A stretch of 64,000 nucleotides of DNA. Source: Halorubrum salinarum. Lineage in GTDB: Archaea > Halobacteriota > Halobacteria > Halobacteriales > Haloferacaceae. Shown piece after piece: positions 602 to 55,233 of the stretch (its first letter is position 1; each line of letters starts with the position of its first letter). The translations under genes were made by a program, and so were the position numbers. The notes below the pieces were generated by a model, which was not told the DNA's origin, did no database searches, and worked only from the letters and a program-made list of their open reading frames with translations. The DNA is taken from the NCBI RefSeq assembly GCF_013267195.1, contig NZ_CP053941.1:496001-560000 (forward strand), in the 5' to 3' direction.

Positions 602-3600
602 ATGACGGAGCCGTCGGAGCTCGTGGGCGCCGTCGAGCGCCGCCTCGACTTCCTCGAACGGCTCGCCGCGGAGCCGCTGCGCAAGCACGAGCTCGTCGAC
701 GCGCTCGGCCACTCCCGGTCGACGGTGAACCGGGCGATAGACGAGCTGGAGGCGGCCGGGCTCGTCGCGAGCGAGACCGACGGCTATCGGACGACGCTCT
801 CCGGGCGCCTCCTCGCGACCGAGTACCGCGAGTTCCTGACGGCCGCCGACGACCTCGCGGCCGCGGGCGACGTGCTGGACCCGCTCGGCGCGGACGTCGA
901 CGTCGACCCCGCGGTCCTCCGCGAGGCGGAGACGTACCGGGCCGCGGCCCCGGACCCTTACCGGCCGCTGGAGGTGCTCGACGGGGCGCTCGCCGACGCG
1001 GACGCGGTCGCGGCGGCGCTGCCCGCGTTCCCCTACCCGCGGGTCGCGGAGCGGCTCCGGCGCACGGCCGCGGGCGGCGGGACCGTCGACCTCGCGCTCG
1101 CGGACCGGGCGTACCGACACGCCGCCGAGCGCTTCGCCGACGACCTCGGCGCCGTCGCGCGCCGGGAAGGGTCCCGCGTCGCCGCGGTCGACGTCGTCGA
1201 CGCGGGGGTGGTCGCGGCCGACGGAACCGCGCTGCTTCTCACCTTCGACGACGGCGGGACGCTCCACGGGGCGGCGGCGTCGAGCGAGCCGGAGGCCGTC
1301 GAGTGGGCGGAACGGAAGGTGCGGGGACTGATCGACCGCGGGCGCGACACGGGCGACGCGCTCGCGGCGATGGACGACGCCGAGACGGGCGAGACCGAGG
1401 GCGACGCGCGCGGCGACGACCGACCCGAAGGAAGCGCGGGCGACTCGTCGACGGGCGGCGACCGATCCGAGGAGGAGGCCGACAGCCGGGAGCGATCCGC
1501 CGGAGCTGACGGGAGGGCGGAACGCACCGGTGGTCGGCTCTTCGGGGGAGCCGGGTCCGACGACCCCGGGCGGAGCGCGCTCTCGGCGCAGGGGTTCCAC
1601 GCGGTCGACGAGGACCGGCTCGCCGGCGAGGCGGACCCGTACGGACCGCTCCGCACCACCGCGTCGTTCCCGGAGGTCGACGCGGGGTACGTCCTCGACA
1701 GGACCGCGGTGCGCGACGGCGAGCGGCGGTCGATCGCCGGCCTGCTCGTCGACGGGCTCGCCGAGGGCACCGATCACGCGCTCGTCGGCCCGCCGGGCAG
1801 CGGCAAGAGCACGGTGTGCCGGAGCGTCGCGGTCGAGTGGTACCGGTCGGGACGCGGTCCGGTGACGTACCGGCCGAGCGACGGCGGCGACCCGTTCGCC
1901 GCGACGGAGCGGCTCCGCGAGCGCGTGACCGCGGGGGACGGCCACCACCTCGTGGTCGTCGAGGACGCGGTCGACCCCGGGGCCGCCGAGGCGGTCGGCC
2001 TCGCCCGCGAGCTGGCCGACCGCGACGACGTGTCCTTCCTGTTCGACGCCCGCGAGGAGCCGTACGACGACCCCGACGGGCTCCCGCTGTCCCCGACCGA
2101 CCTCCGCTACCGCCGGGAGATTGAGACCGTGCGGATGCCCCGGCTCGACGCGCGCGAGGTGGAGCGGTTCGTCGCCCACGTCGCCGACTGTACCGGGTCG
2201 GCGCCGGCGGCCGACCCGGACGCCCTGCTCGACGACGTGCGGCGCGCGGACGACGAGCGCGTCGGGGAGCTGCTCGCGCTCGTCCACCGCCTCGTCCGCG
2301 CGAGCGGCGAGGGCGCGACCGGCGCCGGCGACCCGAGAGGGAGCGCGGGCGGCGCCTCGGGAGAGTACGGCACGGGCGACGGGACGGCCGGACGCGCGGG
2401 GGACGCCGGTCCCGAGTCCGGGCTGGAGGCGGCGGTCGCGGAGGCGGTCCGGGAGGTCCGGAACCGGCCGCCGCCGACGGCGGACGTCGCGGTGCTCGTG
2501 AACCTGCTCAACGTCGCCGGCGTGGGCGAGGTCGAGACCTTGGCGTACGCGCTCGTCGACGGGCCGGCGGCGGGACCGGGGGGCGACCGCGGCGGAGACG
2601 ACGGCCGCCCGTCGCCGACCGTCGACGGGGTGCGGCGCGCGCTCGACCGCCTCGTCGGGACGGCCCTGGTGCGCTCCGGGGACGAGGGGTACCGCGCGGT
2701 CCACGACGAGTGGTCGGTGCTGTTCCTAGAGCGGCTCGTGGAGCGGGAGCCGGCGCCGGTCGTCGCCAGGCGCGTGGGGCGGGCCGTCTCGCGGGTGCTC
2801 GCGCTCGCCGACGACCCGACGCGCCGCGCCCGCGTCCGGCGGGCCGTGGGGGGCGACGCGCCGACGGTCGATCGGATCGAGCGCGACCCGGGCGCGTGGG
2901 CGGCGGAGACGGTCCGGGCGGTGTACGGCGTGGGCCGCCGGTACCCCCGGCTGGCCCCGCTGTACGGGCGCGTTCGCTACGCCCGGATCGACCTCCCGGA
3001 CGCGTGCCCGGACGGCCTGCGCGACCGGCCGCCGGAGTGGGTGACTCGGATGTACGTCGAGGCCGGCGACCTCGACGGGGCGACGGCGGCGCTCGACGCG
3101 TGGCGGCCCGGCGACGAGGCGGGCGCCGCCGAGCGCCAGCGCGGGTACGGCGACGTGGCGCGGCGCCGCGGCGAGTACGACGCGGCGCGCGAGCGGTACG
3201 AGCGGGCCGAGGAGCTGTTCGGGGCCGCGGGCGACCGCGGCGGGCTCGCGGCGGCCGTCCGCGGCCGCGCCCAGGCGGCCCACTTCGACGGGGATTTCGA
3301 GGAGGCCTACGAGGCGGCCTCGCGGGCGTACGCCATCGCCGTCGAGGTCGGCGACCCAATCGGGGAGGCGAAGGCGCTGATGGACGTCGGGAACGCGCTC
3401 GACGGGCTCGACGGGACCGACGCCGTCCTCGCCCACTACCGGGTGGCCGGCGACCTGTTCCGCGCCTACGACGACACACACGGGGCGGCGAACGTGCGGG
3501 CGAACCAGGCGGTCGCGCTGCGGCGTCGCGGCGACCTCGACGCGGCCGAGCGGACGGCGCGGCGCGCGCTCGACGGCTACCGGACGGTCGGCGACGAACA

Positions 3601-4420
3601 CCGCGAGGCCATCTCGCTTTTGAACCTCGCGGCGGTCGCCGAGCAGCGCGGCGCCGTCGGCGAGGCGGTCGCCCGCGCGGCGGAGGCGCGGGCAATCGCC
3701 GAGCGGGTCGGGTCGGAGCTGTACGAGGCGTTCGCGCTGAGCCACCTCGGCAGCGCGGCCCACGTCGCCGGCGACCTCGACCGGGCGGAGCGCTTCCTCA
3801 CGGACGCGCTGGACCGCCTCGACGCGCTCGACGCCGACACGCGCTGCGCGATGGTGACCGCCATCTTGGCGGAGGTCGCCATCGACCGCGGCGACCTCGG
3901 CGCGGCCGAGCGGCGCGTCGACCGGACCGCGTCGCTGCTCGACGACCACGCGGGACACAAGCGGCTGGCGGAGCTAGACCGGGTCCGGGGGCGGCTGGCG
4001 CTGGCTCGGGGGGACGCCGACGCCGCGGCGGCCGCGCTGGAGTCCGCCGTCGAGTCGGCCCGCGCGGGCGGGTTCACGCAGGTCGAGGCGCAGGCGCTCG
4101 CGGCGCTGGGCGCCGCGGCGGCCGAGCGCGGGGACGGCGAGGCGGCGGCGTCCCGGCTGACCGCGGCGCTCGACCTCGGCCACCGGGTCGAGGCGGTTCG
4201 GGCGGTCGTCGCGACCGCCGACGAGCTGGCCGATCTCCTCGCCGAGGGCCGCGGCGGCTCGTCCGCGACGGACCGCGGGGCGGTGGCCGAGGCGCTCCGG
4301 GAGTCGCCGCCCGAGGCGGTCCCGGCCGAGTCGGCCGCCGACCCGGCGGCGTACCGGGCGCTCGCCGACCGCTGGCGCGTCGACGGCGACGGCGCCGCGA
4401 CGTACCCACCGCTCGGGTGA
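602..4420 (+). CDS. winged-helix regulator fused to STAND-like P-loop ATPase and TPR repeats
   Basis: This 1272-residue protein has four parts. Residues 5-80 form a winged-helix DNA-binding domain of the haloarchaeal regulator type. Residues ~80-250 resemble the sensor region that follows such domains in FilR1-like archaeal regulators. After an acidic linker, a P-loop NTPase module begins with Walker A GPPGSGKST at 396-404 and a Walker B-like hydrophobic strand ending in ED near 450. Residues ~815-1230 are at least eight TPR-like helical pairs. Winged helix, NTPase and TPR together resemble MalT/STAND switch ATPases, in which the TPR part senses a ligand or partner and nucleotide drives oligomerisation. 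The start at 602 is supported by the TATA box. DNA binding and ATP hydrolysis are inferred; the ligand and target are unknown. Confidence 0.85.
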   Translation: MTEPSELVGAVERRLDFLERLAAEPLRKHELVDALGHSRSTVNRAIDELEAAGLVASETDGYRTTLSGRLLATEYREFLTAADDLAAAGDVLDPLGADVDVDPAVLREAETYRAAAPDPYRPLEVLDGALADADAVAAALPAFPYPRVAERLRRTAAGGGTVDLALADRAYRHAAERFADDLGAVARREGSRVAAVDVVDAGVVAADGTALLLTFDDGGTLHGAAASSEPEAVEWAERKVRGLIDRGRDTGDALAAMDDAETGETEGDARGDDRPEGSAGDSSTGGDRSEEEADSRERSAGADGRAERTGGRLFGGAGSDDPGRSALSAQGFHAVDEDRLAGEADPYGPLRTTASFPEVDAGYVLDRTAVRDGERRSIAGLLVDGLAEGTDHALVGPPGSGKSTVCRSVAVEWYRSGRGPVTYRPSDGGDPFAATERLRERVTAGDGHHLVVVEDAVDPGAAEAVGLARELADRDDVSFLFDAREEPYDDPDGLPLSPTDLRYRREIETVRMPRLDAREVERFVAHVADCTGSAPAADPDALLDDVRRADDERVGELLALVHRLVRASGEGATGAGDPRGSAGGASGEYGTGDGTAGRAGDAGPESGLEAAVAEAVREVRNRPPPTADVAVLVNLLNVAGVGEVETLAYALVDGPAAGPGGDRGGDDGRPSPTVDGVRRALDRLVGTALVRSGDEGYRAVHDEWSVLFLERLVEREPAPVVARRVGRAVSRVLALADDPTRRARVRRAVGGDAPTVDRIERDPGAWAAETVRAVYGVGRRYPRLAPLYGRVRYARIDLPDACPDGLRDRPPEWVTRMYVEAGDLDGATAALDAWRPGDEAGAAERQRGYGDVARRRGEYDAARERYERAEELFGAAGDRGGLAAAVRGRAQAAHFDGDFEEAYEAASRAYAIAVEVGDPIGEAKALMDVGNALDGLDGTDAVLAHYRVAGDLFRAYDDTHGAANVRANQAVALRRRGDLDAAERTARRALDGYRTVGDEHREAISLLNLAAVAEQRGAVGEAVARAAEARAIAERVGSELYEAFALSHLGSAAHVAGDLDRAERFLTDALDRLDALDADTRCAMVTAILAEVAIDRGDLGAAERRVDRTASLLDDHAGHKRLAELDRVRGRLALARGDADAAAAALESAVESARAGGFTQVEAQALAALGAAAAERGDGEAAASRLTAALDLGHRVEAVRAVVATADELADLLAEGRGGSSATDRGAVAEALRESPPEAVPAESAADPAAYRALADRWRVDGDGAATYPPLG

Positions 4421-4990: not shown

Positions 4991-5250
4991 CGCGGCGGCG
5001 CGTGCCTGCGAGCGGCCGGAGCGAAGCGGAGGCCGCGAGGCGGCACGCGCGAGGGACGCGGTGAGCGCTCGGAGAGCGCGAACCGCGAGGCTGGGGAGGT
5101 GTGAGGTGCGGTTGCGGTCGGGCGGGGCTCGAAGGGGCAGCCGCGAGGCGACCAGACGCTCGCTGCGCTCCTCGTCGCTCGCGTTGCTCGCTCCTGCGGT
5201 GCTTGCGTCGCCTCTGGTCGCCTCGCGGCTGGGGCTTCGGGGGTGTTCGT
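4991..5250 (+). repeat. structured repeat element, copy 1 (putative RNA)
   Basis: This fills the space between two convergent genes. Four paired parts are visible. Hairpin A: GCGCGTGCC (4998-5006) with GGCACGCGC (5042-5050), with a smaller inner stem. Hairpin B: GCGGT and GCGCTC (5058-5070) with GAGCGC and ACCGC (5074-5086). A conserved block follows, beginning GAGGCTGGGGAGG (5087-5099) and ending GGGGCAG. Hairpin C: CAGCCGCGAGGCGACCAGA (5138-5156) with its perfect complement (5213-5231) around a 56-nt loop. It ends with a CTGGGGCTTCGGGGGTGTTC block. The same blocks recur at 48669-48985 and in reduced form at 55154-55233. Unlike those copies it has no GTATAC box. I do not recognise it as a named RNA. 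Confidence 0.8.
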
Positions 5251-27822: not shown

Positions 27823-27938
27823 AACTCGTACACGTCGAAGCCCCGCTCCCGACAAACGGCGGCGTCACCGACCGCGTCTCAGGGCGCTCGGGCGCGTGGG
27901 TCCGACAGAATTATTGTCAGAGAATAAGGGGATAGGTC

Positions 27939-28481
27939 GTGGACGTACGCGAACCGGAGAGCGCGGCGGAGGTTCGGGCCGGAAGGGAACTGACCGTTCG
28001 GGCGTGGGCGGAGGGCTACGGGGACCTCCTCTCGCCGGACGCGCTGTCGACGATAGAGGAGGTGATGCTCGACCAGGACTTCGAACAGGAACACGCGGAG
28101 TTCACCGGGTCGGAGGTCGACAACCGCGCGCTCGTCGCGGTCGCCGACGACGGGGCGGGTGGTTCGACGACCGTCGTCGGCTGGGCGACCCTCGTGTGGG
28201 ACGACGAGTGGACCGGCGAGTTCGTCGGCGACGACGAGGCGGAGCTCCGGGCCTGTTACGTCGACCCCGAGCATCAGGGCGCCGGCGTCGGGGGCGCGCT
28301 GGTCGAGGCGGTCCTGTCGCGCGTTCCGACGGGGTACGATCGCCTCGTCTTGGAGGCGTTCGAAGCCCACGACGAGAGCCGCGCGTTCTACGAGGGGCAG
28401 GGCTTCGAGCCGCGCGCGACGGGCGAGATCGTCGTGGTCGGCGAGTCGAACCCGTCGGTCGTCTACGCGCGGGAGTGCTGA
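27939..28481 (+). CDS. GNAT family acetyltransferase
   Basis: A 180-residue acetyltransferase. The acyl-CoA-binding motif is read as CYVDPEHQGAGVGGALVEAV (about residues 104-123), followed by LVLEAFEAHDESRAFYEGQGF, the usual motif B. The substrate is unknown. A GTG start at 27939 gives the shortest N-terminus without losing the first helix. An AT-rich stretch (GAATTATTGTCAGAGAATAA) upstream may hold the promoter. Confidence 0.9.
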   Translation: MDVREPESAAEVRAGRELTVRAWAEGYGDLLSPDALSTIEEVMLDQDFEQEHAEFTGSEVDNRALVAVADDGAGGSTTVVGWATLVWDDEWTGEFVGDDEAELRACYVDPEHQGAGVGGALVEAVLSRVPTGYDRLVLEAFEAHDESRAFYEGQGFEPRATGEIVVVGESNPSVVYAREC

Positions 28482-28563
28482 GCGCAGGGCCGTCCGACAC
28501 GGCCCGCGCGATCGCCTTCTCGGGACCGACGGGTACAGGTGTCCGCCGAAACGAAACGGGCAT

Positions 28564-48657: not shown

Positions 48658-48985
48658 GTATACACTACTGCGGTGGCGCGTGCCTGCGAGCGGCCGCCGG
48701 AGGCGGTCGCGAGTCAGCACGCGCGAGGGAGTAGTCGCCCGAAGCGGAGCGAGGGCGACTGACGAGGCTGGGGAGGCGCGAGGGGCGGTCGTGGTGCGGG
48801 GCGGGACACAAAGGGGCAGTCGCGAGGCCGCAGTAGGCGACGTAAGCACCGCAGCGAGCGGAGCGAGCGAGGAGCGCAACGAGCGTACTGCGGCCTCGCG
48901 ACTGGGGCTTTGGCGGAGTTCCCCGTAGTGGCAACGACGTAGTGCCGAGCGACTGGGGCTTTGGCGGTGTTCACCGCCGACCTAC
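48658..48985 (+). repeat. structured repeat element, copy 2 with promoter-like box (putative RNA)
   Basis: The 545-nt gap between the oxidoreductase and GST-like genes is largely filled by this element. A GTATAC box (48658-48663) is followed 6 nt later by GCGGTGGCGCGTGCC (from 48670). Hairpin A: GCGCGTGC (48676-48683) with GCACGCGC (48717-48724). Hairpin B: AGTCGCCC (48733-48740) with GGGCGACT (48753-48760). Then come the GAGGCTGGGGAGG block and the GGGGCAG block. Hairpin C: CAGTCGCGAGGCCGCAGTA (48817-48835) with its perfect complement (48886-48904). A final GGCGGT/ACCGCC hairpin with a GTTC loop is at 48963-48978. Stems differ from copy 1 but pairing is kept. The rest of the gap (48609-48657, 49025-49153) shows nothing clear. 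Confidence 0.8.
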
Positions 48986-49024
48986 CATCATCGATGTATC
49001 AGCGAGTAATTGGGGTTTTGGCGG
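48901..49024 (+). repeat. triplicated 16-nt 3'-end motif of the repeat element
   Basis: ACTGGGGCTTTGGCGG occurs at 48901-48916 and 48952-48967, and ATTGGGGTTTTGGCGG at 49009-49024, at spacings of 51 and 57 nt. Each is preceded by a GCGA-type sequence. A variant lies at the 3' end of copy 1 and a reduced form in copy 3. Confidence 0.85.
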
Positions 49025-55153: not shown

Positions 55154-55233
55154 TCGGCAGTGAACACCGCCAAATCCTCGGCCGCGACGACTCGATGCGC
55201 TCGGAGGCGCGCGCCACCGCGGATTTGTATACA
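55154..55233 (-). repeat. structured repeat element, copy 3 (short)
   Basis: Read on the minus strand, a TGTATACA box (55226-55233) is followed 6 nt after GTATAC by GCGGTGGCGCGCGCCTCCGA, then a short middle, then a 3' end TTTGGCGGTGTTCACTGCCGA (a hairpin GGCGGT-GTTC-ACTGCC with one G-T pair). It thus keeps the 5' and 3' ends of copy 2 with the same box spacing but lacks hairpins B and C. It lies between the sugar ATPase and mutL. Confidence 0.7.

Follow-up and report, generated by a model that had tools for sequence, protein, structure and literature searches.

A dispersed intergenic element selected for its fold

Within the 64,000-nucleotide stretch of the Halorubrum salinarum genome that we analysed (the window), we found two copies of a structured element that belongs to a large family in Halobacteria, whose hairpin sequences turn over almost freely provided that pairing holds. 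Selection acts on the fold of its G-rich strand, as RNA or single-stranded DNA, and the fold comprises hairpins A, B and C and a helix D around a GGG/GGG loop, together with nearly invariant unpaired G-rich blocks. Our best explanation, which we hold at about even confidence, is an ancient dispersed intergenic repeat family of Halobacteria, similar in kind to BIME, ERIC and BOX elements and selected for its fold. The elements keep their places across species while their hairpins are rewritten and still pair, from which it seems likely that some cellular process relies on their shape.

The initial annotation of the window had described an element with a 9-bp helix A, a two-part hairpin B, a perfect 19-bp hairpin C and several unpaired blocks, and inspection of both copies found all of these present; the second copy (48675-48912) has the same order of parts, with B and C differing in sequence and pairing kept. 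The element is indeed shared between about 5 kb and 48.7 kb, but these are not its only copies, as the genome holds at least 65, and the convergent flanking genes noted at the outset are found around the 5-kb copy, the 48.7-kb copy lying between divergent genes. Overlooked in that first reading were helix D with its GGG/GGG loop and the tail units at 48902, 48953 and 49010 (Table 1); tails like that of copy 2 are present in other copies too.

Table 1. Copies of the element in the window and their parts
Feature	Position (strand)	Description	Basis
Copy 1 of element	4992..5240 (+)	Core, leader GCGGC to helix D 3' strand	Sequence; 20-nt motif; covariance model
Copy 1 domain A	4998..5050 (+)	Outer helix 4998-5006 with 5042-5050, tandem GA/GA, inner GC-rich stem	
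Copy 1 hairpin B	5057..5087 (+)	Two stems via tandem GA/GA, GGA triloop	
Copy 1 G-rich core	5087..5106 (+)	GAGGCTGGGGAGGTGTGAGG; unpaired, conserved	65 genomic copies; column conservation
Copy 1 helix D 5' strand	5130..5134 (+)	CGAAG, then GGG	Partner 5235-5239; covariation
Copy 1 hairpin C	5138..5231 (+)	Perfect 19-bp stem, 5138-5156 with 5213-5231; interior in the opposite orientation to that of most copies	
Copy 1 helix D 3' strand	5235..5239 (+)	CTTCG, GGG just before	Covariation
Copy 2 of element	48670..48916 (+)	Core	Sequence; covariance model; seed of genome search
Copy 2 domain A	48676..48724 (+)	48676-48683 with 48717-48724	
Copy 2 hairpin B	48733..48760 (+)	AGTCGCCC with GGGCGACT	
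Copy 2 G-rich core	48764..48783 (+)	Unpaired, conserved	20-nt motif match
Copy 2 helix D 5' strand	48809..48813 (+)	CAAAG	Partner 48908-48912 CTTTG; covariation
Copy 2 hairpin C	48817..48904 (+)	19-bp stem, 48817-48835 with 48886-48904	
Copy 2 tail	48902..49024 (+)	Tandem 51-57 bp units that open with CTGGGGCTTTGGCGG (48902, 48953), and a decayed one from 49010	
Third-copy remnant	55162..55220 (-)	Ancestral; 59 bp; A joined to C/D 3' end by internal deletion	

Hairpin B of copy 1 reads CGCGGT-GA-GCGCTC-GGA-GAGCGC-GA-ACCGCG (5057-5087), and B segments had a mean folding z of -4.7. The covariance model, whose training set includes both window copies or close relatives, matched copy 1 at 4997-5106 (E-value 7.3e-9) and copy 2 at 48675-48783 (8.5e-12). 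When whole single copies were folded as RNA, the 48.7-kb copy was significant (z -4.39) and the 5-kb copy was not (z -0.65); the argument rests on comparing copies with one another rather than on folding single sequences. The interior of hairpin C in copy 1 (5157-5212) is inverted, as if flipped between the stem arms, and the same is seen at locus L039. At 602-4420 (+) is a 1273-residue open reading frame whose start resembles a winged helix and which contains TPR-like repeats, both judged by eye; it may encode a large signalling ATPase.

Architecture and covariation

Copies were gathered from searches and sequence stretches, and the consensus anatomy was drawn from 65 of them, with a core of about 250 bp in Halorubrum. 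From 5' to 3', a leader (GCGGT) is followed by helix A, CGCGAGGGA, hairpin B and the nearly invariant G-rich core, then by variable G-rich GCGGT-like words, GGGACTCRAAGGGGCAG, hairpin C, CTGGGGCTTYGG and tail units of about 57 bp, the number of which varies between copies. Helix A has 8 bp, a bulged C, three covarying base pairs, tandem GA/GA and a GC-rich stem, often with a GNA triloop. Helix D, which is new in this analysis, is formed by C[A/G]AAG 5' of GGGCAG pairing with CTT[T/C]G 3' of CTGGGG; it encloses the GGG/GGG internal loop, and CAG/CTG lengthens C. Nearly every copy keeps four G tracts, one in the core, one before ACTC and one on either side of the internal loop. No terminal inverted repeats were seen in the 65 copies, and a closing helix between the leader GCGGTG and the tail, sought by eye, was not consistent among copies. 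A few copies are without hairpin C and some are deleted, so that single copies are dispensable.

Small double-hairpin modules occur optionally at a few fixed positions (loci L028, L041, L087, L049, L105, L016, L020, L042, L043 and L050) and are possibly a second palindromic-repeat family or RNA-like expansion segments. Tail units in several genera keep a strand complementary to the 5' strand of helix D, and in genome G006 (L153-L156, site b) six identical units of about 60 bp stand in tandem, a recent expansion.

When 70 copies were aligned over 90 columns, the proposed base pairs had the highest background-corrected G statistic of all non-adjacent column pairs. Among 49 sequences of the 5' domain from many genera, 16 of 22 pairs had changes on both sides, and the covariation score of 0.316 was reached by none of 500 shuffles (0.138 +/- 0.010); sliding the partners by 1-3 columns, a control that preserves relatedness, gave 0.04-0.11. 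Position 2 of helix D was A-T in 44 copies, G-C in 21, G-T in three and A-C in two (70 copies). Helix D covaries within and between genera, the variants being CAAAG/CTTTG, CGAAG/CTTCG, GAAAG/CTTTC (Haloparvum, Halosimplex and genus g5) and TGAAG/CTTCA (one Halorussus copy). Selection on structure had been proposed from the two window copies, with covariation across many copies named beforehand as one half of its test and a transcript as the other; covariation there exceeded chance, and on that half the proposal survives.

We also observed an asymmetry between the strands. Non-Watson-Crick cells in helices A, C and D were G.U in 46 cases against 13 A.C (P 2e-5 assuming independent cells, related copies being not wholly independent), and the triloops of A and B were GNA in 45 cases against 11 TNC. 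The G-rich strand had a lower folding energy than its complement in all 50 full copies, and z-scores controlled for composition by shuffling favoured it in 34 of 40. The excess of G.U over A.C and of GNA over TNC, with the better folding of the G-rich strand, shows that it is the fold of one strand that is selected.

Copies in the Halorubrum salinarum genome

A search with the 20-nt core motif GAGGCTGGGGAGGYGNGAGG at two or fewer mismatches found 65 occurrences in the genome, compared with one for the reversed pattern, and a DNA search with copy 2 as seed gave at least 41 matches (40 of the 144 candidates being scored). All 65 copies are on the main chromosome (2.94 of 3.34 Mb; P ~2e-4 under length-proportional placement) and all are intergenic according to a codon-model gene caller made for this analysis. 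They are on both strands at uniformly distributed positions, and no strand clustering along the chromosome or replication-strand bias was seen among them. Four of the five closest element pairs in this genome are oriented tail-to-tail, and tail-to-tail inverted pairs 0.1-1.5 kb apart were noted at L066 (Halorussus) and, on G000:C1, at 286 kb, 619 kb, 990 kb and 1431 kb.

The downstream gene faces the element in 42 of the 65 copies, a mild bias (P 0.025), and in 24 the sense strand is antisense to both flanking genes. Structural integrity was equal across gene contexts, including whether the upstream gene could co-transcribe the element; together with the 24 antisense copies this argues against a simple UTR role, and we rejected dependence on a cis UTR because integrity was the same in every context.

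In roughly 40% of copies, the first base of the core is preceded, at a distance of about 14-25 nt, by an AT-rich, TATA-like motif. Such a motif would be expected if each copy were a stand-alone non-coding RNA gene with its own promoter, and the complex fold and the optional hairpins at fixed sites are likewise as in large RNAs. However, haloarchaeal TATA boxes have been mapped near -26 (PMC8707807), so that with this spacing the RNA would mostly start inside helix A, the motif being too near for a start upstream of it. The motif is also absent at most site-1 orthologues and no commoner where a promoter would be needed, we found no properly placed promoter in the upstream regions of copies, and the copy number and intergenic scatter are unlike those of known RNA genes. 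We therefore rejected an own promoter on the spacing of the motif and regard multicopy RNA genes as a highly improbable account of the family.

Orthologous sites and turnover

The 64 kb syntenic with the window in five other species contain four element sites with orientation kept, and 22 of the 24 species-sites are occupied, both vacancies being in the window genome. One of these (site a) is taken by an acetyltransferase-like gene (window ~27823-28500) where the five related species have an element, and the other is the 59-bp remnant at 55162-55220, where the element is intact in five other Halorubrum species. The gene found in place of an element means that element sites also vary in gene content, as do sites 1 and 2 in more distant species. 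At site 2, 15 of 30 loci carry an intact element and two others a remnant; the element is absent from more distant species that have extra genes in the gap.

Mean identity of A, B and C between orthologous sites was 60-74%, which is the level found between paralogues in one genome (63-69%), despite flanking DNA that is ~85-93% identical; this indicates that the hairpins are replaced almost freely. Across orthologous sites the architecture, the unpaired blocks and the site-1 helix D type persist.

Replacement of hairpins faster than the flanks diverge is also what might be seen if the copies were neutral remains of an old mobile element, in which pairing was kept without selection as template switching corrected imperfect palindromes and copies exchanged sequence; the inverted hairpin C interiors of the 5-kb copy and L039 and the recent tail expansion are in keeping with such processes. 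Palindrome correction, however, should erase the bulged C, the tandem GA/GA and the GGG/GGG loop, all of which are conserved, and yields no bias of G.U over A.C. Helix D, moreover, is short, forms no part of the long palindrome and covaries from genus to genus, and the element is kept at orthologous sites in compact genomes. We consider this neutral origin of the pairing unlikely, and continue to favour a dispersed repeat family selected for its fold.

At the syntenic sites we saw neither a target duplication nor a clean insertion of recent date; among them no clean empty site was close enough for duplication to be judged. Reverse transcriptase (PF00078) was found in none of 52 Halorubrum genomes, the positive controls being detected, and on this we rejected a retroelement or group II intron. 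As the sites are old and shared and the Halorubrum genomes searched are without reverse transcriptase, current mobility is not supported: of the two readings first suggested, a non-coding RNA or a mobile structured repeat, the dispersed repeat is certain and the present mobility unsupported.

RNA or single-stranded DNA

The main rival of recognition as RNA is that the G-rich strand folds and works as single-stranded DNA, much as attC and REP sites do, and is recognised by a DNA-processing protein (a recombinase, an HUH/Y1-type nuclease or a replication or repair factor), with the family having been spread by that activity and the protein perhaps still binding. GNA triloops and tandem GA/GA pairs, which are very stable in DNA hairpins, are frequent in the element, which is independent of the orientation of neighbouring genes; copies are confined to the chromosome, and the AT-rich motif occurs at the end of tail units as well as before the core. 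Against this, 11 of the 52 Halorubrum genomes have no Y1 transposase (PF01797), among them some with more than 100 copies, such as G006, G009 and G193, so that Y1 is not needed to keep the element; the copies are without strand clustering along the chromosome, and neither target duplication nor clean recent insertion was found. The absence of Y1 from these 11 genomes also led us to reject a BIME/REP-with-RAYT dependence on this transposase. Recognition as single-stranded DNA is possible, at a probability well short of even.

Recognition as RNA is the mechanism to which we commit, although even within our best explanation we would give it only about an even chance. The family would have spread long ago by transposition or copying, and would now be inherited vertically because the fold is useful. 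The G-rich strand would be transcribed, by read-through or from a promoter, and the RNA recognised at many loci by a cellular protein or complex, for which the unpaired G-rich core and the GGG/GGG loop may be the recognition surface and the hairpins interchangeable struts. Points against this reading are the unsuitable spacing of the AT-rich motif, the 24 copies antisense to both neighbours with integrity equal in every context, and the dispensability of single copies. We hypothesise that the G tracts could form a quadruplex-duplex hybrid in the potassium-rich cell. More tentatively, and with somewhat less than even confidence, we propose that the elements may represent a novel type of structured nucleic acid, large and modular, which is specific to Halobacteria and acts as RNA or as single-stranded DNA. 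Its copies, of which a genome keeps dozens to nearly two hundred on the chromosome, would serve a genome-wide function at fixed sites, and their conserved G-rich core may be a quadruplex that potassium stabilises and that the GGG/GGG loop connects to the duplex.

Since hairpin sequences change at orthologous sites but pairing, strand preference and G-rich blocks do not, selection on the fold is cleanly separable here from selection on sequence, and natural copies number in the thousands. If they are transcribed, the elements may rank among the most numerous structured RNAs per archaeal genome; if they act as DNA, they point to an unknown system that recognises single strands. Either way, they bear on haloarchaeal annotation, assembly and repeat-PCR typing.

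Comparison with known repeats and RNAs

To our knowledge, few repeats comparable to ERIC, BIME and BOX of bacteria have been well described in archaea. BIME/REP elements of enterobacteria occur in tens to hundreds of intergenic copies and are mosaics in which the hairpins can be exchanged and the motifs that join them are conserved; the present element resembles them in intergenic scatter and modular hairpins, but has a much longer core, the inter-hairpin helix D and G-rich unpaired blocks, and no required Y1. BOX elements of pneumococcus are modular with parts variable in number, and, compared by description, the element is built similarly, its variable units being the 57-bp tail and the optional double hairpins. 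Integron attC sites are recognised by structure rather than sequence and on one strand only, which recalls the fold of one strand here, although our element is dispersed, about 250 bp long and without an array in Halorubrum. HEARO and omega RNAs (IscB/TnpB-associated) are also multicopy structured elements, able to stand alone, but the element is without an Rfam match. ERIC (IRU, RU-1), one of the MITE-like repeats, is described in PMC2229807 as intergenic, ~100-250 bp long and foldable as RNA, with terminal inverted repeats, TA ends and target duplications listed. Our element is similarly intergenic, dispersed, in many copies and RNA-foldable, but in it we saw none of the terminal inverted repeats, TA ends or target duplications of ERIC and MITEs. 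Relative to BIME, ERIC and BOX, it adds a covarying multi-part core that spans genera. Class I intergenic repeats of HF2, a Halorubrum virus, are 56-58 bp long and contain TATA boxes according to PMC8707807; their length is like that of the 57-bp tail unit, but the motif quoted there (CTAAAGACTTAGAA) is unlike the tail.

No Rfam family matched at its gathering score and the best permissive matches were at chance level, so that a known Rfam RNA was rejected at both levels; the initial annotation had likewise recognised no known RNA. Open-access literature, searched by topic and with the core motif as a string, gave no description of the element, nor did a search for repeat terms in PMC3990103 and PMC6011602; the family is apparently undescribed in open-access papers.

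Distribution across Halobacteria

In a sample of 292 genomes of Halobacteria, the strict motif was found in all 35 Halorubrum genomes (14-194 copies each) and patchily in other genera, some with more than 100 copies. A relaxed two-block pattern was present in 73 of the 292 genomes (21 of 77 genera), with controls near zero. The covariance-model search over haloarchaeal genomes that had been suggested at the outset, done with a model of the 5' domain, gave matches in 123 of the 292 (36 of 77 genera; E <= 0.001 per genome), of which single near-threshold matches are doubtful and may be chance because E-values are rough and the genomes GC-rich. The scattered genera that carry the element belong to several families, and in a collection of named genomes it was found in Halorubrum, Haloparvum, Halorussus, Halosimplex and Halobellus.

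A pattern search of IMG/VR viral contigs gave no match, and phage records gave none to the element plus tail. Plasmids held only weak relatives, in Halobaculum and Natrinema, and none by megablast. We rejected a viral or plasmid origin on these results.

Copies in Halorussus (L065-L068, L166-L168, L214, L244 and L251) share the 5' domain, and in most of them a different, conserved 3' motif, GGCAGTAGCTAGC or near to it, replaces helix D and hairpin C. Element arrays were seen only in two f8 genomes, where the genes are tandem duplicates; on this ground we rejected integron-like cassettes as an account of the G249 array. At loci L195 (G249:C14) and L197 (G235:C181), eight same-strand elements lie within 11 kb on a small contig; several of the intervening genes are tandem duplicates, zinc-ribbon-like and OB-fold-like by eye, and a poly-A run lies shortly 3' of each element.
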